This document shows, piece after piece, positions 8,336 to 33,006 of a DNA stretch of 33,207 bases. Numbering within the stretch: position 1 is the first letter of the stretch; every line of letters begins with the position of its first letter. The position numbers and the translations under genes are program-made. This stretch comes from Candidatus Parcubacteria bacterium (GTDB taxonomy: Bacteria; Patescibacteriota; Patescibacteriia; PEXW01): contig QZJU01000011.1 in assembly GCA_003597955.1 (NCBI GenBank), positions 1-33,207 of the forward strand. The letters are read 5' to 3'. The notes under the pieces are model-generated. The model ran no database searches, had not been told where the DNA came from, and saw only the letters and a program-made list of their open reading frames with translations.

Positions 8336-11300
8336 ATGCAAAAAAAACCGAGGAAAAATTCAGCAAAAAAAAATCAAAAAAGAAGAGATTTTTACAGTGT
8401 CTTTGAGTTTTTCCGATACAGCCTGAAACAATCGGCTGGGCTGGCCGTGGTTTTTTTGATCTTTGGCATCATATTTTTCAGCCAGGCGCAAAACACCGAA
8501 GTCAAAACCGTAAGTTTGCAACCCGGCAGTTGTTCAGGTTGGATCAACGCAGACCAGACCAAAAAACTTGACTTGATGGAAAACACGCGGCCCGAATGGT
8601 TTAATGACCAAAATTCCGCTAAAATCAGCGGTTTAAATTCGGATTTGGAGTCCAGTACAGATTTGAATTTGGTGTGTAAGGGGTTTGTCTTGCCCGTCGG
8701 CGTTGCCGAAGATTCCACTTTGCGAAACGCCAGAGTTGTGGTTTCTTTGGCCGCCCAGACCCAAGCCGGCAGCGAAGAGATTTTGGTTATTGAAACCAGC
8801 TTGGACGGCGAAAACTGGACCAAACAAGATTCATTCATGCTAAACCGGGAAGTCAGCAACGCGGCTCACGGCGGTTATTGGATTTTTGATTTTCCGCTTT
8901 TGAATGCGGATAATTTAAACGGCTTGCAGGCCAGATTCAGATTTGTCACCTGGCCAGCGGCAGCCCACAGTACGGTCTGGGTGGACGGGGTGCAAGTGTT
9001 GGCTGAAACCCGGCCCAAGCCCACGGTTGAACCTTTGTTTTTGCCAAAGGATGCCATAAAAATCAATAAAAAGGATTTTAAATTCGGCGAAAACCCTGTG
9101 GTTAAAGTCGAAGTAGAAAGAGCTTCGCCTTTACGATTTTTGGGGCTTAAAGGTACCCAGAGACAGGTGGAAGAAGTGAGACTCGAAGATCCTGATGGCG
9201 AAGCATTGCCACTGGAATATGACTTAACTGGTTCAGCTGAAGGTCGTTCGGTTTTTAGTAATTACACCTTTAAAACCGAAAAATTCACCAAGCCAGGCAA
9301 ATACACGGCGACTTTTACAATCCTACAAGACGGTAAGTTAAGCGAAATAAAAAACGAATTTTTTTGGGGCGTGCTGGTGATGAATATGAATCGTTCGGTT
9401 TACCGACCCGGACAGACGGTATATTTCGGCATGGCCACACTGGACCCTCAAGGTCACACCATTTGTGATGCCGAATTAGTTTTAAAGATTACTGACCCTT
9501 TTGGCGCTGTGAAAATTTTAAAAACCGAAGACGGCGGCATTACCCGCTCCAATGAGTGCGGGCCAATTACGGTGACAGATGTGCCTGACTACTCGGCAGA
9601 GTATGATACCGCCGACGAAGGTGAATATCAAGCGGAATTGACGGCTGTGACCACTTCAGGCGTGCATTTCATCTCCGAAACCATATATGTGGACGCAGTG
9701 ATTCCATTTGATATCAGTCGTTCTGGGCCCACCCGGATTTATCCGCTTGCCGATTACACTATGGCCGTTACCGTAAAAGCCCAGGACGATTTTGTGGGTC
9801 TGGTAGAAGAAACTTTGCCCGGGTCTTTTGAAGTATTGATTGTCTCGAATAACGGTCAAGTAAAAAAGGAAGGCAAGGTTTTAAAAATCAAATGGCAGGT
9901 GAAATGGCGCGCTAACCAAATTTACACTTTGTCATACCGGTTTAATCCGCCGGACATTAGCCCCGAACTTTTCCTTTTGGGGCCGGTTAAAATCGGTAAT
10001 TATTTAGAATCCAGGCAGTGGCAAATTGCATCTGATATCGTGGGTCTGGCAGCCCTGGAAACTTCAGCCAATACTAGTGTTTTTAGACATGAAGGCGAAG
10101 GTCGGCACCTAGTTTTTACCGACGATTTAACCGGCTATGCTTTTTATGTCAACAGCTCCGGTACCTTGGTTTACAAAAAGACAGTCAATGGCGGAATTGA
10201 TTGGGCTGACGCGATTAATGTGACCGACCAGACTGATTGTGAAAATTTTGCGATTTGGTATGATCGTTGGACCCCCGGCAGTACGGGTAACCTTATTCAT
10301 GTGGCGTTTTTGGAAAACGGCACCGACACGATTTATTACGATAATATAGATACCAGCAGCTCTGACACGCAAAAAGGCGAGGTCGCCGCCTATAGCGACT
10401 CCGCAACTGGTCGCACAGGTTCTACGGATAGTATCAGCATCGTCAGCGCCACTGATGGCGATATTTATATTGCCATCAGTTCAGGCGCGGCAAATTCGAC
10501 CGCGGTGGTTAGAAATTCCAGCGACACGGGGACAAATTGGAGCACCACAGCGGACGAAGGTTTGGATGATGTTACTCAGGATTATGTGTTGTTAATGCCA
10601 TTAGCCAGCGCGGATATTTTATTACTGCGTTGGGATGTTAGCGCCGACGACATTCAATCTAAAGAATACGAAGACAGCGCCAATTCTTGGGAGGCAAATT
10701 GGACTGATCATAATGTGGACACCAATGCCGTGGAAGGCGCATCCAGATCGGAAACCTGGGGCGCGACAATTGATCCCTATACTTACAATATATATTTGGC
10801 ATATGTAGATAACGCTTGGGATGCGTCTGCCACCCCAGATGTTCGAACCGCGGTTTACAATGGTTCAGCTTGGACCAGCAAAACCAATGTCATTACCGAC
10901 ACCAACACCATCACCAGCGCAACCATTGCCTTTGACACTTTTACCAGCGAAATATATGTCATTTACATCCGCGGCTCAACCGGCGCCAGCACGGTGTATT
11001 ATAAAGTTTCTGATGACGGCATGACTACCTGGAGCGCAGAGCGCGGCCCGGTAATGAATTTAAACACCACTCAAGTTGATACGGTTCACGCAAATACCGT
11101 CAGTGATAAAATGCTGGGAATGTGGGCGATTGACGGCAGCAACTTTGACATTTGGTATGGCACAGTTTTTGATGTTGGCTTGCTTTCCGGAGCGCTGCAG
11201 TTGACCAATATGAATGGGTTTGAAACTGCGGACAGCGTGGACGCTAACTCGACTTCCGGTACCCCCACCTATAGCAATTCGATTTATCGTTCGGGCGAAT

Positions 11301-14300
11301 ATAGTTTAAGGAGTAATCCCTCCTCTTCGGCTATGTGGGTCCAGCACGGCGTGACTTATAATGCCAATGGCAGCGAAGGCAGCACTGGTTATGATGTTTT
11401 AAGCAGCGTTTTTGCTTTGCGTGTGGCTTCAGGGACCACTCAAAATCAAGCGACAATTATTTATGATGTCCGAAGGGCGGCGGATTCGCAATTTACCATT
11501 ACTTTGAACACGGACCGCACGATTAGTATTACCGGCGGCGCGGCGGCTTCAACCACGGCTTTGGCGCAGGACACCTGGTATGTTTTGGCGATTACAATTA
11601 ACGCTGATACGGACACTCATGAGGTTGGAATTTACAATTCGGACATGACGGTATTTTACGAATCTCTGACCTCTGCCAGCGCTTTAGGCGGAACTAGTTT
11701 CACCTATGTTCGGCTTGGCGCCTCTACGGCTTCAACCACAGCTGATATTTATATTGATGATTTTATGGTGTATGTGAATAATACGACTGGAAATTTTCCT
11801 TTACTCAAGGGCGATTATCGTATTGCCAGAATGGACGCGGATTCTGCCGGCACCAACACGGCCTGGGTTGGCGCTGGCACTTGTACTGGTTGCACTGCCG
11901 ATTACCAATATATTAATGAAATTCCAACCAGCACGGCAAATTACATCCAAATTACGGCAGACGGGGATGAAACCTCAAATTTGGAGTCCGCTAGCAGCGC
12001 GGGGATTACTGGAACTTTTATGCAAGCGAGGGTCATGAACACGGTTTGGGAATCATCCAACACAAATCAAACCGTGGTGCATACGATCAGAGTGCTATCC
12101 GGCCTTACGAATGAAACCTCATCAATAAATACTACTACCACAGTGACCGATTTTATGAAGATGTATAACTTTGTTGATTTACGGCCAGCCATAGTCGGTG
12201 AATCAACTACTCCTTACACAGTTACTAATTTAGATTCATTACAAATTGGTGTTGGTACAGACCAAGATCCGGGCAGCGGATATTATCGCAGCGGTTCCAA
12301 CACAGTTCAGGTGGCTTACCAACCGTCAAAAATTTCAGTAAGTGGGAAAATTTATTCTGACGATGGCTCAACCGCTTATGATTGCTCGGCAAATAATTTA
12401 ACGATTTACGCTTCGACTAATGGCGGTTCCGATCGAACCGGGATTTGCATTTCTTCAGCCGGCGTTTATTCCGTGATAAGCGACCCAACAAGTTCGGCCG
12501 GAGATCCGATTGCGGTTTACATTGACAGCAGTGAAACGCCCAAAGCCACGACCGTGACCTTGGCCAATGATACGACTTCAAATATTAGCGGTTTTGATTT
12601 GTATCAAGACAGGGTGATTTTAAGGCATGAAACTTCTTCGGCGACGCCCATGACCAATGCCAAACTAGCCACTGCCGATAATGGCAATGGAGGCATTCGT
12701 TATGGCGTTTCCTCTTCGAATTTAACCACAGATTCTGGTTTGGAATTGCATGTCTGGACCGGCAAGACTTATGATCCCGGGGGGACGGTTACGACAAATT
12801 CTTCGGGCGGGAATTTTCACATCGACGATAGCGCCACGGCATATTTGGATACTGATAGCAATTCGATTGGCCAAGATATTTTGGTTGACGGCGCTGCGAG
12901 TTTAACTATTGACGGGAGCACGACGGTCGGTAGTGATATCATAACTTCCGGGACGAGCGCAACCATTACCCACGCGGCTAATTCTCCAATCATTACGCTT
13001 TCGAACACAAATGTTATTGGCGGCGGCACAACTCCCTCTCTGACTTTTTACAATTTGACAATTTCCGGTAGTTCAACTTTTAATTCCGACTTTACGGTTA
13101 AAAATAATTTGACCCTACCGGCGTCAGTGACAGCCAACAGCACGACTGTGACCATGACCGGCACCAGCAGCACCTTAACTGGGGGCGGCGCAACCATAAA
13201 TAATTTAACCATTGATCCGGCCAGCGCCGGCACGATTACTTTAAGCACTTCGGATCTTAACGTGTCCGGGACGGTTTCAATTGCCAGCGGCGATACCTTT
13301 AGCATGGGTAGCGGAAGGACTTTAACACATTCGGGCAGCACATTAACTTTGACCGGGACTTTGTCGGGCCCAGGCCGTTTTACCTACCGCTCCAGCACAG
13401 CTTTCCCTTCCGGCGGCACGCTTTCGGGGAGCTTGGTTTTGCGTTTTGACGCAACTTCAAACAACCAAACCATGACCAACCGAACGGATTATTTTACCGT
13501 GGAGGTTGACAATAGCGGTTCAACCGACGGACGGGTCGTCACCATGTCAGCCAGTACCCATACTTTGGGCGGCAATTTAACCATACTTTCGTCAGGCACG
13601 GGTTCTATCAACTTGTCCGGGGATACAAACGACCCAACCGTGAATATCACGGGAAATTTATCTTACACTTCTGGCGGTGGCACCAAAACCATTACCACTG
13701 GCACTGGCACTTGGACCGTAAGCGGAGATGTGAACATGACCAACGGCGTTTTTACACCCGACACCAACCACACCTTGGTTTTAAACGGCTCGGGCAAAAG
13801 CTTGACTTCTGCCGGCAACACGCCATTCAACATCACTGTCGATCCTGGAACCGGAAACACTTTCACATTCAATGATGCAGTAACCACAAAATTTGTTAAT
13901 CCGGTCAGCGGCGATTTGACAATATCCAGCGGTACGCTTGCGAGCGCCTCTGACATCACGGTTAACGGTGGTGATTTTACCGGTGCTGGCGCTCTCAACC
14001 ACACCGGCGGCACAGTGACGATTTACACTAGTGGTACGGTCGGCAGCAGTTCAGGTCAAGCCTGGAATTTCAATAATTTGACTTTTTCCATTGGTTTTTC
14101 GGGTTGCACATTGGACTACACCAGCACAGTACACGCCAGCGCCGGCACTATGACAGTTAACGGGGTTTTTGCTACCCAATCATGCTCATCCGGCGAAAGT
14201 ACCTATCGTCACTATTTGGATGCCGGCGCTAGCACTTGGATATTAGCGGGCGCGCAGGCTGGAACCGTTATTTATTTGCTTGATAACGGCGATACTTCGA

Positions 14301-16696
14301 CTTTTCGTTACACTTCTTCGAGCAACTCAAATATACTTGGTAACACCACTGGTTATTATAATCTTGAAATGATTCCTGCTTCGGGCACTCCGACTTACAC
14401 GCTTTACACATCTTATGTTTATGGTAATTTGACCATCAACTCCTCGGTTACCCTAAGCCACGGAACCAACGAGTTGCGCATGCGCGGCACGGGCAAAACC
14501 ATTGATGCTGGTGGCGCCACTTTTTACGATTTTTATTTAGATAATTCAAATACGGTTACAGTATCAAATACCGGGTTTACGGCCTCAAGGGTCTTAAGCA
14601 TCGGCGGTTCGGCGGTATTATCCATAAGTTCGGGCCAAACCGTTTCGCACACAGGAACTATCTTTATTTTAACCGGCACGATTTCTGGCGCCGGGACTTT
14701 GCGTTTTACCAATACATCAGCCGGGCCGGGCACCGGCGGCACTCTTTCTTCGGTAGTTCGCTATGATGCTTCCGCCAACAACATTAGTTCAACCATAATT
14801 GACGCCCGAACTTACGGCGGCAAAGTGGAAATCTATGCCAGTGATTCTGCCACCGCGGACCGGACGGTCACGCTTTCGGCCAGCACTTACACGCTTTCGG
14901 GTGCGACTTCGCACTTGCATGTGATTAATGATAGCAATACTTACACCTTGACTTTAGTCGGCACCAACAACCCAACTGTTAATATTGGCGGGGATTTGGA
15001 TTTTACGGGCGTGGGCTCAAGTTCGGAAATTATCACCAGTGGCACGGGCACCTGGACCGTGAGCGGAAATGTAAACTTCACTGACGGAACTTATACTGCG
15101 ACGAGTGGTAACACCTTAATTATGAATGGGACAGGGACTTTAACTAGCGCCGCCCAGACTTTACAGAACCTAACACTTTCCGGCACCGTGACTTTGGCTA
15201 ATGAAACCCACACAGTCTCCGGGGATTTTAGTATGGCTGGGGGTACAATTACCCCGGGGTCATCTTTGGTTTTAATGAATGGTACGGCAAATACCATAAC
15301 CGGTGGCGGTCAGACGCTTTATGATTTAACTATTAATCCCGCTCCTACCGGTACCATAACCTTGCAAACTTCGGACCTGACAGTTTCCAACACCTTAGTT
15401 ATAGCCATTCTTGATACTTTGGCGATTGATAATGGTCGGACTTTAACACATTCTGGGGCGACTTTAACTTTAAACGGAATTTTAAATGGTCCCGGTCGTT
15501 TAACCTATCGCAGCGGTACGGCTTTTCCAACCTCGGGCGTTTTAGCGAGCTCGCTTATTTTACGTTTTGATACAGTGGCTAACGATCAAACCATGAGTGC
15601 CAGAACAGATTATCAGTTCGTGGAAATCGATAACAGCGGTACCACAGCCGGTCGAACCGTAACCGCTGGTAGCGCCGGCGGTCAAACCATCATTATTGCT
15701 TCGACTTTGGATCTTTTGAATACTGGTGCTGACCCAAGCACCACGATATTTCAAGCCGACACCTATGACCCGACTTTGACGGTAACGGGCAATGTCACAA
15801 TTGCGGCAAATGCCACTTTTCAAGCCAGTTCGGCAACGACTATGAATTTCGGGTCGGGTTTCTCCAATTCCGGTACTTTCAACCACAATAGCGGCACAGT
15901 TGCTTTGACCACTTCGGCCGCTTCGACAATTTCCGGCAGTACGACCTTTAATAATTTATCCGTTACCGGCATTGGTGCGGCCAAAGCCATAACTTTTACC
16001 GCCGGCACGACCCAAACCGTAATCGGCACCTGGACAGTCACTGGCGCATCAGGTCAATTGGTGACTCTACAATCTTCTAGCAGTCCAACGCAATGGAATA
16101 TTAATCCAGCTTCGGCCTCGATTTCTTATGTTCAAATTTCAGATTCCTACAATACAAGTGGTTCCACGATTTGCGCAACCTATTCCACAGATACCGGGAA
16201 TAATAATACCGGCTGGACAGTGTCTGGCACAGGCAGTTGCGGTTCAACCTTGACCGTAGTTTTAAGCGGCAATGCAGCGGCTTTAGGCACTTTATCAGTA
16301 AGCAACATCAATCAGGCGGGTATAACCAGCACGGTCACTACCAATGCGACTTACGGCTACATCTCAATGGTGAAATACAACAACACTTTAACCTCTGGCA
16401 CAAACATAATTCCAGACACCACAGGAGGAACTATTGTGGCGGGCACTTCCGAATTCGGCGCGTCTTCTTCGGATTCCGGCAACACCATTGCCCAGTGGAA
16501 CCCGGCTGCTTGCTCAACCACGGCTACCACATCTAATGCCACAGCCTTATCCACAAATTTCCAGTCTTTCGCTTCGGCCACTAGCGCGGTCACCAACGAA
16601 TCAACCACGCTTTGCTTTTTGGCAAGTATTAGCGGCTTGACGCCCGCTGGCTATTACACCAGCACCGTATCCTTGGTGACAACAGCGAAATTTTAG
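8336..16696 (+). CDS. Giant secreted repeat protein (2786 residues), putative surface adhesin or stalk
   Basis: One uninterrupted frame. A basic N-terminus is followed by a single hydrophobic helix (about residues 32-52), so it is exported and either cleaved or anchored there. Next come beta domains, including an alpha2-macroglobulin MG2-like segment (MNRSVYRPGQTVYFG, near 350). Residues ~560-930 read like a BNR/sialidase-type propeller without a recognised active site. A LamG/concanavalin-like domain (~960-1145) and a carboxypeptidase-regulatory-like domain (~1335-1430) follow. Residues ~1500-2640 are a Ser/Thr/Gly-rich region like a beta-solenoid. In it a ~110-residue block starting GGGATINNLTIDPA recurs ~706 residues later as GGGQTLYDLTINPA, with a diverged copy between. 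The last ~145 residues are shared with the protein at 18476-19549. No LPXTG or enzyme motif was found. The start ATG has no ribosome site. Confidence 0.88.
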   Translation: MQKKPRKNSAKKNQKRRDFYSVFEFFRYSLKQSAGLAVVFLIFGIIFFSQAQNTEVKTVSLQPGSCSGWINADQTKKLDLMENTRPEWFNDQNSAKISGLNSDLESSTDLNLVCKGFVLPVGVAEDSTLRNARVVVSLAAQTQAGSEEILVIETSLDGENWTKQDSFMLNREVSNAAHGGYWIFDFPLLNADNLNGLQARFRFVTWPAAAHSTVWVDGVQVLAETRPKPTVEPLFLPKDAIKINKKDFKFGENPVVKVEVERASPLRFLGLKGTQRQVEEVRLEDPDGEALPLEYDLTGSAEGRSVFSNYTFKTEKFTKPGKYTATFTILQDGKLSEIKNEFFWGVLVMNMNRSVYRPGQTVYFGMATLDPQGHTICDAELVLKITDPFGAVKILKTEDGGITRSNECGPITVTDVPDYSAEYDTADEGEYQAELTAVTTSGVHFISETIYVDAVIPFDISRSGPTRIYPLADYTMAVTVKAQDDFVGLVEETLPGSFEVLIVSNNGQVKKEGKVLKIKWQVKWRANQIYTLSYRFNPPDISPELFLLGPVKIGNYLESRQWQIASDIVGLAALETSANTSVFRHEGEGRHLVFTDDLTGYAFYVNSSGTLVYKKTVNGGIDWADAINVTDQTDCENFAIWYDRWTPGSTGNLIHVAFLENGTDTIYYDNIDTSSSDTQKGEVAAYSDSATGRTGSTDSISIVSATDGDIYIAISSGAANSTAVVRNSSDTGTNWSTTADEGLDDVTQDYVLLMPLASADILLLRWDVSADDIQSKEYEDSANSWEANWTDHNVDTNAVEGASRSETWGATIDPYTYNIYLAYVDNAWDASATPDVRTAVYNGSAWTSKTNVITDTNTITSATIAFDTFTSEIYVIYIRGSTGASTVYYKVSDDGMTTWSAERGPVMNLNTTQVDTVHANTVSDKMLGMWAIDGSNFDIWYGTVFDVGLLSGALQLTNMNGFETADSVDANSTSGTPTYSNSIYRSGEYSLRSNPSSSAMWVQHGVTYNANGSEGSTGYDVLSSVFALRVASGTTQNQATIIYDVRRAADSQFTITLNTDRTISITGGAAASTTALAQDTWYVLAITINADTDTHEVGIYNSDMTVFYESLTSASALGGTSFTYVRLGASTASTTADIYIDDFMVYVNNTTGNFPLLKGDYRIARMDADSAGTNTAWVGAGTCTGCTADYQYINEIPTSTANYIQITADGDETSNLESASSAGITGTFMQARVMNTVWESSNTNQTVVHTIRVLSGLTNETSSINTTTTVTDFMKMYNFVDLRPAIVGESTTPYTVTNLDSLQIGVGTDQDPGSGYYRSGSNTVQVAYQPSKISVSGKIYSDDGSTAYDCSANNLTIYASTNGGSDRTGICISSAGVYSVISDPTSSAGDPIAVYIDSSETPKATTVTLANDTTSNISGFDLYQDRVILRHETSSATPMTNAKLATADNGNGGIRYGVSSSNLTTDSGLELHVWTGKTYDPGGTVTTNSSGGNFHIDDSATAYLDTDSNSIGQDILVDGAASLTIDGSTTVGSDIITSGTSATITHAANSPIITLSNTNVIGGGTTPSLTFYNLTISGSSTFNSDFTVKNNLTLPASVTANSTTVTMTGTSSTLTGGGATINNLTIDPASAGTITLSTSDLNVSGTVSIASGDTFSMGSGRTLTHSGSTLTLTGTLSGPGRFTYRSSTAFPSGGTLSGSLVLRFDATSNNQTMTNRTDYFTVEVDNSGSTDGRVVTMSASTHTLGGNLTILSSGTGSINLSGDTNDPTVNITGNLSYTSGGGTKTITTGTGTWTVSGDVNMTNGVFTPDTNHTLVLNGSGKSLTSAGNTPFNITVDPGTGNTFTFNDAVTTKFVNPVSGDLTISSGTLASASDITVNGGDFTGAGALNHTGGTVTIYTSGTVGSSSGQAWNFNNLTFSIGFSGCTLDYTSTVHASAGTMTVNGVFATQSCSSGESTYRHYLDAGASTWILAGAQAGTVIYLLDNGDTSTFRYTSSSNSNILGNTTGYYNLEMIPASGTPTYTLYTSYVYGNLTINSSVTLSHGTNELRMRGTGKTIDAGGATFYDFYLDNSNTVTVSNTGFTASRVLSIGGSAVLSISSGQTVSHTGTIFILTGTISGAGTLRFTNTSAGPGTGGTLSSVVRYDASANNISSTIIDARTYGGKVEIYASDSATADRTVTLSASTYTLSGATSHLHVINDSNTYTLTLVGTNNPTVNIGGDLDFTGVGSSSEIITSGTGTWTVSGNVNFTDGTYTATSGNTLIMNGTGTLTSAAQTLQNLTLSGTVTLANETHTVSGDFSMAGGTITPGSSLVLMNGTANTITGGGQTLYDLTINPAPTGTITLQTSDLTVSNTLVIAILDTLAIDNGRTLTHSGATLTLNGILNGPGRLTYRSGTAFPTSGVLASSLILRFDTVANDQTMSARTDYQFVEIDNSGTTAGRTVTAGSAGGQTIIIASTLDLLNTGADPSTTIFQADTYDPTLTVTGNVTIAANATFQASSATTMNFGSGFSNSGTFNHNSGTVALTTSAASTISGSTTFNNLSVTGIGAAKAITFTAGTTQTVIGTWTVTGASGQLVTLQSSSSPTQWNINPASASISYVQISDSYNTSGSTICATYSTDTGNNNTGWTVSGTGSCGSTLTVVLSGNAAALGTLSVSNINQAGITSTVTTNATYGYISMVKYNNTLTSGTNIIPDTTGGTIVAGTSEFGASSSDSGNTIAQWNPAACSTTATTSNATALSTNFQSFASATSAVTNESTTLCFLASISGLTPAGYYTSTVSLVTTAKF
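16264..16693 (+). repeat. Shared C-terminal module, copy 1 (giant protein)
   Basis: The last ~145 codons of the giant gene match codons 19115-19546 of the second secreted protein. Long identical runs (YISMVKYNNTLTSG, GTIVAG, EFGASSSDSGNTIAQW, PAACSTTATTSNATAL) and the same end LVTTAKF are visible. Nucleotide identity is also high, pointing to a recent duplication or gene conversion. Confidence 0.92.
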
Positions 16697-18475: not shown

Positions 18476-19549
18476 ATGAAAAACCACCTTAAGTTCCGGA
18501 AAAATTTTGGTCGATATTCAATAGCCATTTTAAGCGTCTTGGCTTTAATTTGGCAATTTAGCGCACCCCGAGTGGCTAATGCGGGAACCATGACGGTTTT
18601 GCGAATGTATTTAAATCGCCAGCAGGCCGATGTTGCGACCGGCGTGCAATTTGAGGTTTTCTTTACGCCTGTCACTAATGTCAGCGGCGGTTCAGGCGCA
18701 AACAGTGTGATTTTTGTTTTTCCGAACACTGCCAACCATAACACCAAATGGTGCCGCACTGTTGGAACCGGAGATTTGGTGATCACGGGTATTACCGACC
18801 CAACCGGCGGCAGTGAAACGGCCACGGCTTTGCCCGGCACAACCAAGACTGGGGCTTGCACACAAACTCCCGACACTTTCACGATTAGCGGGGTGGATAA
18901 CTTGACGGCTGGAACAAAATACGGTTTTCGAGTTGCTATGGCTTCTTCCACAGTTATCGGCACTACCAGTGCTGCGGCAAACGACATTCAAGTGACCGTG
19001 AAAACCAATAATGGCTCTGGGGATATCGACACAGGCACTTTAGCTTTGTCAATTATCGCTGCGGATCAAGTTAGTGTCACAGCAACCGTCACGCCGACTT
19101 TGACGGTGACCTTGAGCGGCACAAGTGCGGCCTTGGGTACTTTGACTACGGCTAATGTAAATCAGGCAGGCATTGACAGTACCGTGACAACCAATGCCGG
19201 CGGCGGCTACATCTCCATGGTGAAATATAATAACACCTTAACTTCTGGCGCCAGCGACACGATTGATGATACTTCCGGTGGAACAATCGTGGCGGGTACG
19301 GAGGAATTCGGCGCTTCTTCTTCAGATTCCGGCAACACCATTGCCCAATGGAGCCCTGCGGCTTGCTCAACCACGGCCACCACTTCTAATGCCACAGCCT
19401 TAACCACGGCTTTTCAATCTTTTGCCTCAAGTTCCACGCCGGTCAGTTCAGAGGCGATCACTCTATGTTTTCTAGCTAGTGTTAGCGGAACAACTCCGGC
19501 TGGATCCTATACCAGCACCGCCACCCTGGTTACGACCGCAAAGTTTTAA
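18476..19549 (+). CDS. Secreted beta-rich surface protein sharing the giant's C-terminal module
   Basis: A 357-residue exported protein. Signal peptide of about 36 residues (MKNHLKFRK, hydrophobic core, PRVANA-G). Residues ~37-205 form a Thr-rich beta domain with one probable disulfide (TKWCRT and TGACTQ). The last ~145 residues, from SGTSAALG to TTAKF, are nearly the same as the end of the 2786-residue protein. That module has two conserved cysteines (PAACST and LCFLAS). I do not recognise a named family; it behaves like a common attachment or assembly domain. The strong private promoter suggests high expression, as for an S-layer or fibre subunit; that is inference. A DUF916-like protein follows downstream. 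Confidence 0.8.
   Translation: MKNHLKFRKNFGRYSIAILSVLALIWQFSAPRVANAGTMTVLRMYLNRQQADVATGVQFEVFFTPVTNVSGGSGANSVIFVFPNTANHNTKWCRTVGTGDLVITGITDPTGGSETATALPGTTKTGACTQTPDTFTISGVDNLTAGTKYGFRVAMASSTVIGTTSAAANDIQVTVKTNNGSGDIDTGTLALSIIAADQVSVTATVTPTLTVTLSGTSAALGTLTTANVNQAGIDSTVTTNAGGGYISMVKYNNTLTSGASDTIDDTSGGTIVAGTEEFGASSSDSGNTIAQWSPAACSTTATTSNATALTTAFQSFASSSTPVSSEAITLCFLASVSGTTPAGSYTSTATLVTTAKF
19115..19546 (+). repeat. Shared C-terminal module, copy 2
   Basis: Counterpart of 16264-16693. It differs by one extra codon near TSGASDTIDD and by scattered substitutions, many of them synonymous. Confidence 0.92.
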
Positions 19550-28898: not shown

Positions 28899-28933
28899 AT
28901 AAAAAAAGGATGTGTTTATTTAAACACATCCTT
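28899..28933 (-). terminator. Rho-independent terminator of the T-box operon
   Basis: AAGGATGTGTTTA (28906-28918) and TAAACACATCCTT (28921-28933) are perfect 13-nt arms with a 2-nt loop. Reading the minus strand a T run follows (28907-28901). It lies 15 nt after the stop of the phosphoribosyltransferase-like gene. Confidence 0.92.
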
Positions 28934-28948: not shown

Positions 28949-29854
28949 TTAAAGTTTTCTAAGCACAGCATTTAGTGCTTCGGTGAATCTGCGCTTATCT
29001 CGGGCTACGCCTTTGGGCAAACGGGGGACATCCTGGGAGAGTATTGGTCGGCCTGATTCTTTTTCAATATTTTCCCAGAGCTCAAGGCTTAGTGAGAGAA
29101 TAAAACGTGAAAAATCTATGGCTCGATCAGTGGGAATAGAGGCTCCTTTAATAGGATCACCGAACGGTAAGCAGTATGGTAAAGATATTTCAGGCTCACA
29201 GGGACTGACAATACCGTGATCTACTTTTCCGGCGGTGCGTCCAGACAAAGGCACGCCAACATAGAAGTCACGTTCGCACACCCAGTCAATGACGTTTTCA
29301 TATTCCTTCACGGCCACCAGGGGTATTTCGGGATATCTCCTAATAAAACGGTTTTGGTGACGATCAATGACTAGGCCCACAATTATTCTTTCCACGATGA
29401 ATCCTTGATTCAGCATCAATTGATAAATCCTGGTTAGTGTACCCCCAGAGAAACAGCCGTCATCTACCAAAGTGATTGGCTGGTCTTTGGGTAGTTTCCT
29501 GATTTGCTCAGTCAGCGAAGCATGCCCAGGTCGATGGGCTTCACCGATGACCTCCATTGTGTCCAAATCCGCAATACGATTGCTTTCAAGATGATGTTTA
29601 CAACTATTATAAATCTGGTCTAATGAAACGACGGTTGTCCCGTTAGCTGATAGAATTAGTTGCTTTAAATCTTCTTGCAAACCCTTGTATGAGATAACAA
29701 CAGCGGATTTGTTACCAAAGATCGATTCGAGCTCGTTAATTAATTTAAGCTGAAGATTTTGGAAAAACCCATGATCAGGAACCCGTAACCTCATTTTTTC
29801 AGTCCACCTGTGGACAAGAAATTCAAGATCCTCGGTAATTATGTATGGTTTCAT
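28949..29854 (-). CDS. Phosphoribosyltransferase-like protein
   Basis: A 301-residue protein. The PRPP-binding signature of type I phosphoribosyltransferases is clear in LVDDGCFSGGT (129-139): two acidic residues followed by a Gly/Ser/Thr loop. The region around it (IIVGLVIDRHQNRFIRRYP) fits the fold's strands. The N-terminal ~100 residues and the C-terminal ~100 (GRTAGKVDHGIVSPCEPEISLPYCLPFGDP) are not those of the common base salvage enzymes, so the substrate is unknown. AAGGAGGAG lies 3 nt before the ATG at 29854. Last gene of the operon under the T-box, 14 nt after the HAD gene. It may use the product of the phosphorylase or make a nucleotide from an unusual base. Confidence 0.75.
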   Translation of the reverse strand: MKPYIITEDLEFLVHRWTEKMRLRVPDHGFFQNLQLKLINELESIFGNKSAVVISYKGLQEDLKQLILSANGTTVVSLDQIYNSCKHHLESNRIADLDTMEVIGEAHRPGHASLTEQIRKLPKDQPITLVDDGCFSGGTLTRIYQLMLNQGFIVERIIVGLVIDRHQNRFIRRYPEIPLVAVKEYENVIDWVCERDFYVGVPLSGRTAGKVDHGIVSPCEPEISLPYCLPFGDPIKGASIPTDRAIDFSRFILSLSLELWENIEKESGRPILSQDVPRLPKGVARDKRRFTEALNAVLRKL

Positions 29855-29868
29855 TAACTCCTCCTTAG

Positions 29869-30699
29869 CTACTCACAATCACGCCGCAAAAGCTCAATCA
29901 CCCCCTGTGTTATTGATGTTGATGCTACCCTATCGGCGATCGTTTTTAATTTTTTTTGGGCATTACCTACCGCCCAAAGCTCATCTACTACACCCGAAAG
30001 CGGGATTTCAGTGATGCCATCACCAATTGCAACGATGCGAAAATCAGGATACGCTTTGCGGAGCGCTGGTATTGAGATTGATTTCTGATTTGAGGGATCC
30101 GATAGGATACAAACTCCATACGAAATATTCGCATCAATTTCTATCCAGGTTTCCGGTAATTCGGCGAGCGTGCACTTGGTTACATCGATTACACTGCTAA
30201 AAAAACTTTCATCGTGCAACCATCGTCCTTTTTCACCGATTTTCCGCATATGCATGCTTAGCGAGCATCTTCGGTGAGGATTAAAAAGTAATATCAGAGT
30301 TCCGGGTGATTCTTTTGCGGGATTTTGAAATGCTTCCAAATATAATTCTTTCCTTACCTCAAGAGATGGAATCGCATTGAGCAACCGTATCACTAGAGCT
30401 TCACATAGTTTTTGCCAGTTTATGCGAGGCAAAAGCACCACCTCACTCCGTTTAGATTCATGAACAATGCATGCGCCACGTTCGGCGATCAGCGGACCTC
30501 GAAAATTAAAAATCCGCATCCATTTTTCAATTACCTCAATCGGAGAATCAGATATAATACCAATTCGATTACCACGCGCAATCAATTCTTGTGCGACACG
30601 CCCCACGATGTCTGAAGACACGACAGGCTCGTAATTTTCATTTACGAGCGTAAGATCGAGATCGATTAAATATAATGTTTTTGGCACAAGGCCTCCCAT
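29869..30699 (-). CDS. HAD-superfamily hydrolase (Cof/phosphatase-like)
   Basis: A 276-residue cytosolic protein with the HAD motifs: DLDLT (D13, D15, the nucleophile and acid/base pair), GIISDS (47-52, motif II) and AIGDGITE (motif IV, GDG 226-228). An inserted cap of ~130 residues fits the C2/Cof type. Such enzymes remove phosphate from sugar phosphates or nucleotides. Two starts are possible: the ATG at 30699, or the GTG at 30687, four codons on, which has GGGAGG 4 nt upstream. Translation is probably coupled with the next gene. Context suggests a nucleotide, ribose phosphate or similar substrate. Confidence 0.8.
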   Translation of the reverse strand: MGGLVPKTLYLIDLDLTLVNENYEPVVSSDIVGRVAQELIARGNRIGIISDSPIEVIEKWMRIFNFRGPLIAERGACIVHESKRSEVVLLPRINWQKLCEALVIRLLNAIPSLEVRKELYLEAFQNPAKESPGTLILLFNPHRRCSLSMHMRKIGEKGRWLHDESFFSSVIDVTKCTLAELPETWIEIDANISYGVCILSDPSNQKSISIPALRKAYPDFRIVAIGDGITEIPLSGVVDELWAVGNAQKKLKTIADRVASTSITQGVIELLRRDCE

Positions 30700-30740
30700 T
30701 CTTTTTATAGGTATTTATTGTTAAAGTTCTTTTTTATTTT

Positions 30741-31505
30741 TTAATTTTCCTGATCCAATAATTCTACCGCGCGTAAAGCTGTTCGTATTGCTCGATCAAT
30801 ACCCTCAGCAGCCCGGGGGGACACTTCAAGCTGGTATATTAAATCAGGGTTTTTAGCTATGCGATCAAGTGGTTCTGTCGTATTGACTGCCAAGACGGCG
30901 CCAGCTCGGGTATTTCGAAGTTTTGCTACGGTATAAATAGCCGAACATTCCATTTCAGAGCTAATTAGCTCACCGCAAGCGTATTCTGGTAATTTCATCA
31001 GCCGCAAGAAGCGTTCGGCACTTTCATAAAATGCGTCGTGCGTGCGGTTGACGCCAGTAAATGATTTAATACCCAATTCTTTCGCGCTTGTTTCAAGAGA
31101 CTTTAAAACCGTCGGATCTGCCGAAGCTTGAAAATCATCATTGACATATTCTTGTGTAGTTCCTTCGAGCCGAAGTGCACGCGACGGAATGATTATGTCG
31201 CCAGGCTGAATTTCTGATTTTAGTGCGCCGCATGTACCAATCCGTATGAATGTCTTGGCGCCAACTGCGACGAGCTCTTCGACGGCGATGGCGGCTGATG
31301 GCGACCCAATACCGGTTGAGGTGGCGGCAACAGGGATCCCTTTATATGTTCCTACACATGTGCGAAATTCACGCTGATAGGCGATTTCCTTCCAAGAATC
31401 CCAATATTTTGTGATCTTATCGATCCTTGCCGGATCGCCTGGCAGAAATACAAACGCCGGCACATCCCCAGTTATTAAATTTAAGTGTGGTTGCGTTTTT
31501 TCCAT
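30741..31505 (-). CDS. udp: Nucleoside phosphorylase (uridine phosphorylase-like)
   Basis: A 254-residue enzyme of the NP-I family, which cleaves nucleosides with phosphate to a free base and (deoxy)ribose 1-phosphate. Seen: FLPGDPARIDKI (phosphate loop), STGIGSPSAAIAVEEL, RIGTCGAL, GDIIIPSRALRLEGTTQEY, and SEMECSAIYTVA, the ribose-binding Met-Glu motif. Length and motifs fit uridine phosphorylase best, but a purine nucleoside phosphorylase cannot be excluded. It is the first gene after the T-box riboswitch. No ribosome site precedes the ATG, unlike the two genes downstream. Confidence 0.88.
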   Translation of the reverse strand: MEKTQPHLNLITGDVPAFVFLPGDPARIDKITKYWDSWKEIAYQREFRTCVGTYKGIPVAATSTGIGSPSAAIAVEELVAVGAKTFIRIGTCGALKSEIQPGDIIIPSRALRLEGTTQEYVNDDFQASADPTVLKSLETSAKELGIKSFTGVNRTHDAFYESAERFLRLMKLPEYACGELISSEMECSAIYTVAKLRNTRAGAVLAVNTTEPLDRIAKNPDLIYQLEVSPRAAEGIDRAIRTALRAVELLDQEN

Positions 31506-31529
31506 AAGATAAAGAATTATATTGGTTGA

Positions 31530-31597
31530 AAAAATAATTAAAATACCCTCGCCCCCTACGTGCTCCTGCGCATTAGCAGCAACCTGTAAGGAACGAG
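31530..31597 (-). terminator. Regulated terminator of the T-box leader
   Basis: CTCGTTCCTTAC (31597-31586) pairs over its whole length, with wobbles, with GTAGGGGGCGAG (31559-31548). TATTTTAATTATTTTTT follows. The 5' arm is the same sequence that closes the antiterminator, so the two structures exclude each other. Confidence 0.85.
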
Positions 31598-31822
31598 AGT
31601 CTTTATTTAATTAAGATTCTCGCGGTCCCATCCTTACTTTCCGGACTTTGCCCATTTATCTGGGTAATATCCGAACACTTAATTTATAATTCACGATGAG
31701 TGACCACCGTCCCCGCTTTTGGCGGAGCTGCTTGAGAGTTGTGTTCAGTAAACCCCTGGTATCCGGCTTACACTATCCCGGATTCGCTTGAAACCTATAA
31801 ATTTACTTACTATTTCTCTCTA
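31530..31822 (-). promoter_or_regulatory. T-box riboswitch, predicted tRNA-His specific
   Basis: Complete T-box leader on the minus strand. Stem I: AGTAAA (31807-31802) pairs with TTTACT (31752-31747), and ATCCGG (31783-31778) with CCGGAT (31766-31761). It carries the AAGCGA bulge and the apical GTGTAAGC of known T-boxes, and a 5' GAGAGAAATAGTA. The specifier loop reads GAA-CAC-A with CAC at 31743-31741, a His codon. Stem II region includes CCGC/GCGG; stem III has CCCA/TGGG inside TTCGGA/TCCGGAA. The T-box AAGGATGGGACCGCG (31635-31621) forms an antiterminator with CTCTCGTTCCTT (31599-31588), leaving the 7-nt bulge TGGGACC. TGGG pairs with a CCCA tRNA end; C73 is typical of bacterial tRNA-His. 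A TTGACA lies upstream (31850-31845) without a clear -10. Confidence 0.93.
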
Positions 31823-31903
31823 CAAACGCATTGTGTTCTTAAACTGTCAAAGGTTTAATTAGACTATACCCAAATGGCTTTTTTAGTCAAATTCGAGGCT
31901 TGT

Positions 31904-31932
31904 GAATAATAAGGGCTGAGCTGATTCAGCCC
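31904..31932 (-). terminator. Terminator of the EamA-like gene, stop codon in stem
   Basis: On the minus strand GGGCTGA (31932-31926) pairs with TCAGCCC (31919-31913) around a 6-nt loop, followed by TTATTATT. The TGA stop is part of the stem. It isolates the upstream genes from the T-box unit. Confidence 0.72.
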
Positions 31933-32417
31933 AGAACTTTTTTGAAAAACTTGATTACGGTTTCCTGCGGAAAATACAGAAGAAAAATCGCCACTCCCCC
32001 TAATAATAAACCAATAACCTTTGTCCAGGGAAAACCCTCATGCAGGAATTTTGTGCCAATAAGAGCGACTACCGATATTGTGCCTACCGATACTAACGGA
32101 TAAGCGATGGACATCTGCAGGGCGCCGTAAACCTTAACCAGCAATAAAAGAGTTATTGCCCAGACTAAGGAACCAAAAATTACATATTTTAAGCTGATTG
32201 GCGTAAAAGCCAAACTGGCAACAGTGCTGGATTTCTGTCCCAGAAACTGCCCGGCCAACCAATGAAACAACAGTCCGACTATAATCAAGGCAATACCCGA
32301 ACTGATTGCCATTAAGGGCGGCGTTGCGCCATTTACGGCTGCCTTACGCAGGCACAGGCTGAAAAGTCCATTCGCTATGGAAACAGCGACCAAAAAAACG
32401 ATTAACTGCTTGCTCAT
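31926..32417 (-). CDS. Four-helix DMT-superfamily (EamA/SMR-like) membrane protein
   Basis: A 163-residue hydrophobic protein with four predicted helices, about residues 5-25, 36-56, 77-98 and 103-150 (the last region holding one or two). SIAYPLVSVGTISVVALIG is the Pro-containing helix typical of EamA and SMR half-transporters, followed by FLHEGFPWTKVIGLLLGGVAIFLL, the usual last helix. It resembles half-size transporters that work as dimers. The substrate is unknown. GGAGA (32427-32423) lies 5 nt before the ATG. It is separated from the T-box unit by its own terminator and from the next gene upstream by 64 nt. Confidence 0.75.
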   Translation of the reverse strand: MSKQLIVFLVAVSIANGLFSLCLRKAAVNGATPPLMAISSGIALIIVGLLFHWLAGQFLGQKSSTVASLAFTPISLKYVIFGSLVWAITLLLLVKVYGALQMSIAYPLVSVGTISVVALIGTKFLHEGFPWTKVIGLLLGGVAIFLLYFPQETVIKFFKKVLG

Positions 32418-32481: not shown

Positions 32482-33006
32482 TTATACTTTTTCTAAAAAT
32501 TTCACCGCTTGCGAAATACACTCTTCAGCCGTTGAAGCGCCAATAAATACAACTTTTTGGCTTTCGTCAAAAGAAGTACCGGCCAGCCGATCGAACTCCT
32601 GGCTGAAACCAGTATACACGATCATCGGTATGCCCAAACGATAAGCCATATAGATTTCAGCCCAAGTGCCCGGCCCGCCCGGCAATATGATTATTGCGTC
32701 GCAGCTTAATAACCCGGCAAACAGGAAATCACCGACATCAATGGGAGTGCATATTTCCACATCGACAAATTCGTTTGACCCCTTGCGATTCCTGCCGGGA
32801 GTGCCGACAGTGATTCCACCGCCTTCTTTCGCTCCTTGACAGGCTGCCTGCATGACTCCGTCCATGCCGCCGGTTATCAAAATTATTTTCTGCTTAGCTA
32901 ATAAAAACCCGATTTGGTGCGCGGCGCTCAATACAGCGTCTGCTTTGTCACCCAGGGCAGCCAAACTCGCTTGACTACCCCCAATTACTCCAATCTGCGT
33001 GCTCAT
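32482..33006 (-). CDS. LOG/TIGR00725-type Rossmann protein (possible nucleotide-processing enzyme)
   Basis: A 174-residue cytosolic protein of the SLOG/lysine-decarboxylase-like superfamily. Seen: GVIGGSQAS near the N-terminus, ITGGMDGVMQAA (44-55), GITVGTPG, and PGGPGTWAEIYMA (109-121), equivalent to the PGGxGTxxE nucleotide-binding motif. The LOG enzymes of this fold cleave nucleoside monophosphates to a base and ribose 5-phosphate; TIGR00725 members are uncharacterised. The GTWAE form and short length fit TIGR00725 better than the cytokinin-activating LOG. AGGAGA (33018-33013) lies 6 nt before the ATG. It could contribute to nucleotide turnover with the downstream salvage genes, but it has a separate promoter. 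Confidence 0.82.
   Translation of the reverse strand: MSTQIGVIGGSQASLAALGDKADAVLSAAHQIGFLLAKQKIILITGGMDGVMQAACQGAKEGGGITVGTPGRNRKGSNEFVDVEICTPIDVGDFLFAGLLSCDAIIILPGGPGTWAEIYMAYRLGIPMIVYTGFSQEFDRLAGTSFDESQKVVFIGASTAEECISQAVKFLEKV

Follow-up and report, generated by a model that had tools for sequence, protein, structure and literature searches.

A histidine T-box upstream of a nucleoside phosphorylase operon in a Parcubacterium and its links to a wider Patescibacteria gene module

Here, we describe a histidine (His) T-box leader in front of an operon encoding a nucleoside phosphorylase (NP), a HAD-type hydrolase and a phosphoribosyltransferase-like protein (PRT), located in a stretch of 33,207 nucleotides from a Candidatus Parcubacteria bacterium (assembly GCA_003597955.1, contig QZJU01000011.1), hereafter referred to as the window. 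Sequence analysis confirms that the leader is a complete, histidine-specific class I T-box, and its predicted action as a transcriptional switch directly on the three genes is well supported. Moreover, relatives of the PRT in other Patescibacteria (the Candidate Phyla Radiation, CPR) lie behind predicted operators of the histidine repressor HisR. We regard it as the strongest new point of this work that two unrelated histidine sensors, an RNA switch and a protein repressor, appear to couple one PRT family to the histidine status of the cell. The window, contig C7 of a 98.5% complete genome of 990 kb, was compared with 381 genomes of the same Patescibacteria class (the class genomes).

Results

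A complete histidine T-box precedes the operon

The leader and its control elements are listed below; G044 is a genome from another family of the class.

31863..31890, minus strand: sigma-70-type promoter TTGACT-16-TATAGT, 5' of the T-box (10 of 12 matches)
31586..31835, minus strand: T-box riboswitch leader of class I layout, from Stem I to antiterminator (RF00230; covariation with G044)
31741..31743, minus strand: specifier codon CAC (His) in the loop GAA-CAC-A (sequence and the frame of Arg T-boxes)
31621..31634, minus strand: T-box sequence AGGATGGGACCGCG with the bulge UGGG at 31630-31627, complementary to the CCA end and C73 of tRNA-His
31586..31637, minus strand: antiterminator helix GUAAGGA...UCCUUAC with GCGAGA/UCUCGU (-17.9 kcal/mol)
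31529..31600, minus strand: intrinsic terminator with a U-rich tail, mutually exclusive with the antiterminator

In an E-value search, RF00230 covered its full model (1-219) at 31835-31586 on the minus strand with 88.7 bits and E=5.7e-20, and Stem I aligned over its full length with two non-standard pairs. A default-threshold Rfam scan of the window reported no T-box because this score lies just under the gathering score of 93 bits, a cut-off that is uninformative in this class, since T-boxes immediately 5' of valS, thrS, aspS, glyS and argG span 25-98 bits. The leader is the sole T-box detected across the 990-kb genome.

The specifier loop (31746-31740) has the expected layout of GAA, codon and purine, and we assign its frame to CAC because argG T-boxes of related genomes carry GAA-CGC-G (Arg) at the equivalent position. 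The same genome encodes a tRNA-His with the matching anticodon GUG (G000:C20 near 32132), which has a G-1:C73 pair and whose C73 is complementary to the UGGG bulge. Among the 12 class T-box cores listed, UGGG is found in two, the window leader and its G044 counterpart. The match with C73 is supportive and not decisive, since the discriminator of tRNA-His may pair with G-1, the reason why TBDB leaves the discriminator aside in the case of His T-boxes (PMC7778990). Specifier and bulge together bear out the histidine specificity proposed in an earlier reading of the DNA from its letters only (the sequence-only reading).

Downstream of Stem I, the conserved T-box core AGGAUGGGACCGCG pairs with CUCGUUCCUU to form the predicted antiterminator, with the UGGN bulge present. 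Its 3' strand, CUCGUUCCUUAC, is common to antiterminator and terminator, so that the two folds exclude each other. The terminator stem (31600-31545) is predicted at -34.4 kcal/mol (z=-7.9; 0 of 200 shuffles equally stable), and its U-rich tail ends at 31529, 24 nt upstream of the phosphorylase ATG at 31505, close to the 25 nt given in the sequence-only reading. Predicted direct control of the trio by the T-box, as had been proposed, is thereby supported. A translational T-box was also considered, as the first hairpin has no U tract, and was dropped after the downstream terminator had been located. The promoter is the best of four promoter-like sites in the region, where such sites are no commoner than in shuffled sequence; its element TTTGACTA is present in G044 too, at the same position relative to the leader. 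The span first assigned to T-box and operon, 28949-31822, proved slightly short, as the leader begins at about 31835 and the promoter reaches 31890.

Across the class, 160 of the 381 genomes have a T-box match at E<=0.001, several of them directly 5' of valS, thrS, aspS, glyS, trpS or argG. A T-box survey lists Firmicutes, Actinobacteria, Chloroflexi, Thermus/Deinococcus and Geobacter as the only groups (PMC3766115), and our literature searches for T-boxes in CPR bacteria found nothing relevant.

The arrangement is kept in a second family

In G044 (contig C3), the same leader stands before an orthologous NP with 62% identity. All 18 tested Stem I pairs form in both leaders, and seven of them are changed on both sides, that is, compensatory; CAC, UGGG, terminator and antiterminator are likewise kept in both. 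The G044 genes follow one another on one strand in the order histidine ammonia-lyase (HAL), two tRNA-His genes, hisS, T-box, NP, TIM-barrel protein, kinase-like protein, HAD and PRT. Given the conservation in G044 and the covariation in Stem I, a chance adjacency of T-box and NP was rejected. Moreover, there is no his or hisS gene between T-box and NP in either genome, and the second hisS of G044 lies upstream of the T-box, so that a hisS lost from between the two was rejected as well. The sequence-only reading had stated that its link between T-box and operon would fall if the adjacency were peculiar to this contig or if an intervening his or hisS gene had been deleted here; because G044 keeps the arrangement, neither applies.

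The operon encodes NP, a HAD protein and PRT

30741..31505, minus strand: NP, 254 aa (PF01048, PNP_UDP_1, 3e-37)
29869..30699, minus strand: HAD-IIB type hydrolase, 276 aa (PF08282, 1.7e-7; TIGR01487, 3e-11, below its cut-off)
28949..29854, minus strand: PRT, 301 aa, with a phosphoribosyl pyrophosphate (PRPP) motif (PF00156, Pribosyltran, 1.5e-5)
28906..28933, minus strand: intrinsic terminator at the operon end (12-pair stem, T tail)

The gene order given in the sequence-only reading stands, with the HAD protein (PF08282) and the PRPP-motif protein (PF00156) downstream of NP and a closing stem at 28933-28906. Its description of NP as uridine phosphorylase-like holds for the PF01048 fold and for the phosphate and ribose residues, and fails at the base-binding positions. 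An alignment of the six family members keeps the phosphate residues (GDP, R45, R88-x-G-T) and the E-x-E motif of the ribose site. Gln166 and Arg168, the uracil-binding residues of uridine phosphorylase, are not conserved: the first position is A, T, I or L, and the second is N in five of the six and R in the window, which sets NP apart from the uridine phosphorylases. Because these two positions are not conserved, NP probably acts on a base other than uracil or the common purines. In addition, NP scores far under the equivalog cut-offs for uridine phosphorylase and purine nucleoside phosphorylase (PNP), for example with 202 bits against a cut-off of 280 for TIGR01718.

The Pfam match of PRT narrowly misses the Pfam cut-off. 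The protein has the type I PRTase motif, a hydrophobic strand followed by the DDxxxSG PRPP loop, ITLVDDGCFSGGT, on a Rossmann-like core, and the loop is partly degenerate in some homologues. Its AlphaFold2 model (pLDDT 95, pTM 0.90) has the type I PRTase core only. Compared with the PDB, this core resembles XPRT, APRT and OPRT (E ~1e-4), with partial overlap and a TM-score of ~0.3 by query length. As judged from sequence and predicted structure, PRT is thus far from any known subfamily. A phage origin was rejected, as PRT has no matches in viral contigs or phages, and so was a defence origin, for which PADLOC yielded a weak LOG match only.

PRT relatives lie beside histidine genes

We next consider 31 distinct PRT loci, for which partners were taken within 9 kb and genes were mapped by simple open reading frame calls and home-made profiles; the scan profile was an alignment of a subset of the 18 PRT sequences, which are too diverse as a whole for this purpose. 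PRT homologues are present in 18 of the 381 class genomes, and the named records that carry PRT are all CPR (Kerfeldbacteria, Uhrbacteria, Woesebacteria, Taylorbacteria, Staskawiczbacteria, Parcubacteria and others). Of the 31 loci, 27 have one or more histidine-linked partners: HisR/YerC at 13, HisRS (histidyl-tRNA synthetase, usually a second copy) at 12, tRNA-His at 10, HAL at 7 and a His T-box at 2. The four loci without such a partner (L090, L101, L114 and L121) lie on short contigs or are truncated where a contig ends. Other partners are LOG-like proteins (22 loci), HAD (9), AstE/AspA (8), GNAT (7), NP (6), M20 (3) and nucleoside hydrolase (2). Across the class genomes, PRT and HAL occur together in 8 against 1.1 expected (p=2e-6), PRT with NP in 6/7 (p=3e-8) and NP with HAL in 6/7 (p=2e-7), p-values that overstate the evidence because the genomes share phylogeny and are not independent.

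These neighbourhoods give strong, if indirect, support to an alternative raised in the sequence-only reading, namely that the cassette produces or salvages a compound related to histidine or derived from a nucleoside. Its other suggestion, that the operon governs how much PRPP flows into histidine synthesis, found no pointer in our data, which do not extend to the his genes of this genome. No T-box was found at module loci L056-L059 and L068, and a candidate at L105, which matched the core motif and for which Rfam found nothing, was not counted.

A predicted histidine repressor stands in front of other PRT loci

Many PRT loci without NP carry HisR instead. The small gene 5' of LOG-PRT at many loci is YerC/YecD (HisR family, TIGR02531), and 10 of 10 proteins tested, nine from PRT loci and one from a remote NP locus, exceed the TIGR02531 cut-off. 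YerC is HisR, a TrpR-family repressor whose DNA binding in vitro depends on L-histidine and whose operator is cacTTTAnnnnnnTAAAgtg (PMC9413887). Over 772 kb of module loci, ACTTTA-N6-TAAAGT has 12 exact matches against 0.2 in shuffled sequence, most of them no more than ~35 bases from the start codon of hisR or LOG. Exact operators lie 5' of hisR and LOG-PRT at L112:8970, L105:3059, L116:8969 and L117:3316, as well as at L118:8844 and 8862 and L091:7862 and 8211; the complete 20-mer consensus CACTTTAGTATACTAAAGTG is present at L112. One-mismatch operators lie 5' of hisR at L228 and L230, both of which also hold a second HisRS (HisRS2), HAL, GNAT and tRNA-His. HisR thus seems to function as a repressor responding to histidine in the CPR. 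With a His T-box in two genomes and hisR with operators at other loci, the PRT family has the pattern of a histidine-limitation regulon, and since T-box and HisR are mutually unrelated, they would represent two independent histidine sensors on one gene family.

Histidine ammonia-lyase and a second HisRS

HAL is present in 24 of the 381 class genomes, and of 23 HAL loci, 16 have HisRS and 13 have tRNA-His. In an alignment with P. putida HAL, the G044 enzyme retains the ASG of the MIO motif together with Tyr53, His83, Asn195, Gln277, Tyr280, Arg283, Phe329 and Glu414, and for this reason it should act on histidine. Urocanase is missing in 28 of 34 genomes checked, the window genome included, and in 18 of the 24 HAL genomes, so the plain Hut pathway was rejected as the whole explanation. 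HAL alone is no marker of the module, because some genomes carry it in an ordinary Hut operon. One such operon lies at L231:9221-15474, where HAL is accompanied by urocanase and by FTCD-like and imidazolonepropionase-like genes. We searched the literature for HAL in combination with Patescibacteria and met with no relevant report.

Two or three hisS genes occur in 9 of the 18 PRT-bearing class genomes (G034, G044, G093, G115, G135, G181, G243, G246 and G336), and five comparison genomes without PRT, NP or HAL matches have one each. Module HisRS copies form their own branch, apart from the housekeeping copies, and where two HisRS genes are clustered they are additional to the housekeeping HisRS (as seen in G135). 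G-1 is often absent from module tRNA-His genes, and A73 is present in three of those listed, whereas the housekeeping genes retain G-1:C73. In Caulobacter, tRNA-His without G-1 and its HisRS are orthogonal to the E. coli pair (PMC3875453), which makes it plausible by analogy that module HisRS and tRNA-His are orthogonal to the housekeeping pair. No HisRS duplicate that functions in aminoacylation is in the list of PMC9437257.

Several clusters stand out by their composition. A73-bearing, G-1-less tRNA-His genes lie beside a second HisRS at L059:6875-6950, L098:2851-2927 and L093:7601-7674, possible cases of orthogonal HisRS/tRNA-His pairs inside one genome. L093 has two hisS and two tRNA-His genes around PRT-LOG-HAD-HAL, and L226 holds two hisS, two tRNA-His, HAL, GNAT and M20 in one cluster. 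GNATs are found at 9 of the 23 HAL loci and at 7 of the 31 PRT loci, and in G003, from the window's own family, a GNAT is fused to a LOG-like (SLOG cluster 4) protein beside HAL (L218:6653-7861).

Other genes of the window

31926..32417, minus strand: small-multidrug-resistance-like 4-helix membrane protein (PF00893, weak, 0.0098)
32482..33006, minus strand: LOG/TIGR00725-like (SLOG cluster 4) protein, a module partner (PF18306, 2.4e-30)

The small-multidrug-resistance-like gene, which lies upstream of the promoter and was not found at other module loci, is probably a separate unit. Elsewhere in the window, a predicted 2786-aa protein (8336-16696) and a 357-aa protein (18476-19549) share a closely similar C-terminal stretch, which suggests a repeated surface domain.

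Discussion

Taken together, our sequence comparisons lend good support to the histidine-specific T-box, to HisR with its operators and to the gene linkage. Under the mechanism that we propose, charged tRNA-His would leave the leader to end in the terminator (31600-31529), while uncharged tRNA-His would pair with CAC and UGGG, allowing the antiterminator to form and the NP-HAD-PRT operon to be transcribed. The operon would then be the local version of a Patescibacteria histidine-limitation module that is centred on the PRT family and elsewhere is under HisR control. A LOG-like protein belongs to most versions, while NP or nucleoside hydrolase, HAD, the acyl or peptide hydrolases AstE/AspA or M20, GNATs, HAL and a second HisRS/tRNA-His vary between loci. 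As T-box and HisR would both switch on at histidine shortage, a role in supply or salvage is the most likely one. Most of the other parts would remove groups, with HAD taking off phosphate, NP, nucleoside hydrolase and LOG taking off ribose, and AstE/AspA and M20 taking off acyl or peptidyl groups. Such a module could release histidine, or else an imidazole precursor of it, from conjugates that are ribosylated, phosphoribosylated or acylated, and HAL would perhaps aminate urocanate toward histidine.

We infer the direction of supply, the riboside or ribotide substrate, the direction of HAL and the roles of PRT and LOG from gene content and regulation. On balance we lean towards a supply role at histidine limitation, while the specific imidazole riboside or ribotide chemistry is doubtful. 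A broader version is possible, if short of an even chance, in which histidine or an imidazole is handled as a nucleobase: PRT would ribosylate it, LOG, NP or nucleoside hydrolase would free it, and the route would be connected through HAL and the separate HisRS/tRNA-His, giving histidine, charged tRNA-His or a histidyl nucleoside under T-box(His)/HisR control.

Several observations weigh against supply at histidine shortage. The sequence-only reading had asked whether a His T-box always precedes these genes; it does so at two of the six loci that hold NP and PRT together, the others having tRNA-His, HisRS2 or HAL. Urocanase is present in 6 of the 34 genomes checked, and since some HAL loci resemble hut operons, HAL could equally well destroy histidine. 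PRT, GNAT and kinase add groups instead of removing them and fit salvage less well. Finally, the window genome has a single hisS, and its HAL is on another contig than the operon (C1); because this HAL is cut by the contig end, a second hisS beside it could have been lost in the assembly gap.

Two rival explanations, both of them unlikely in our judgement, deserve closer attention. The module could make or recycle a histidine-containing, nucleoside-like molecule, in which a dedicated HisRS/tRNA-His pair and a GNAT transfer histidine from His-tRNA while PRT, LOG, HAD and NP assemble or recycle the nucleoside part. The second HisRS, the unusual module tRNA-His genes, the GNATs with their LOG fusion in G003 and the missing aminoacylating HisRS duplicate noted above would fit this scheme, for which SbzA, an IleRS paralogue that moves Ile onto altemicidin, provides a precedent (PMC9437257). 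HisRS2 and GNAT do share a locus at L098, L218, L219, L220, L226, L228, L229 and L230, among others. However, a pathway that consumes histidine should not be induced by its shortage, as T-box and HisR would do, the window genome has neither a GNAT adjoining the operon nor a second hisS, and the GNAT fold is so broad that these proteins may be ordinary N-acetyltransferases.

Plain salvage of nucleosides and ribose, with tRNA-His charging as a general starvation signal, seems to us no more probable. NP and HAD would recover ribose-1-phosphate and bases and PRT would recapture the bases; the folds of NP, nucleoside hydrolase, PfkB, PRT and HAD are classical ones for salvage, and CPR cells are thought to rely on scavenging. 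Yet the linkage is specific to histidine, through T-box(His), HisR, HisRS2, tRNA-His and HAL, and no T-box for another amino acid was recognised beside PRT. Moreover, the base pockets are unlike those of uridine and purine enzymes, and PRT is remote from known subfamilies. That the T-box came by chance or by transfer from hisS and has no metabolic meaning is very improbable: the hisS just upstream of it in G044 and its restriction to two genomes would agree with this, but two families keep the arrangement with covariation, CAC, UGGG, terminator and antiterminator, and a different histidine regulator, HisR, is present at the same PRT family elsewhere.

A His T-box and HisR on one PRT family offer a concrete handle on a pathway in mostly uncultured bacteria. 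If our interpretation is correct, histidine metabolism would reach beyond the his and hut genes, the retention of a second HisRS and of dedicated tRNA-His genes in such small genomes would be explained, and Patescibacteria would join the phyla with T-boxes.

Finally, the system can be set against those already described. NP has the fold and the phosphate and ribose residues in common with uridine phosphorylase and PNP (PF01048), while Q166/R168 are unconserved in its family. In plants, cytokinin bases, ribosides and ribotides are interconverted around LOG, with phosphatase, nucleoside hydrolase or phosphorylase, PRT and kinase. These are the same enzyme types as in the module, which instead goes with histidine sensors, HAL and HisRS; beside PRT, where no search aimed at it was made, we saw no isopentenyl-transferase. 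SbzA resembles some sister loci in that a duplicated aminoacyl-tRNA synthetase lies near a GNAT (PMC9437257), but the synthetase here is HisRS instead of IleRS, and the window operon has neither synthetase nor GNAT. The sister loci have the regulator family, operator consensus and histidine response of the HisR (YerC) regulon, whose targets are histidine biosynthesis and transport (PMC9413887), whereas here they are LOG-PRT and, elsewhere, tRNA-His, HisRS2 and HAL. Similarly, the T-box(His) leaders of Firmicutes (his operon, hisXYZ, yuiF, hisC; PMC9413887) have the same tRNA-His sensing, core and terminator/antiterminator switch, whereas the targets in this case are NP, HAD and PRT and the host belongs to the Patescibacteria. 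The T-box is therefore of a known kind and its target set is new within the literature searched, in line with the sequence-only reading, which was aware of no such system in the literature. As T-boxes have served to infer the function of uncharacterised genes under them (PMC7778990), the histidine sensors and histidine genes beside the PRT relatives point to an undescribed histidine-linked pathway.

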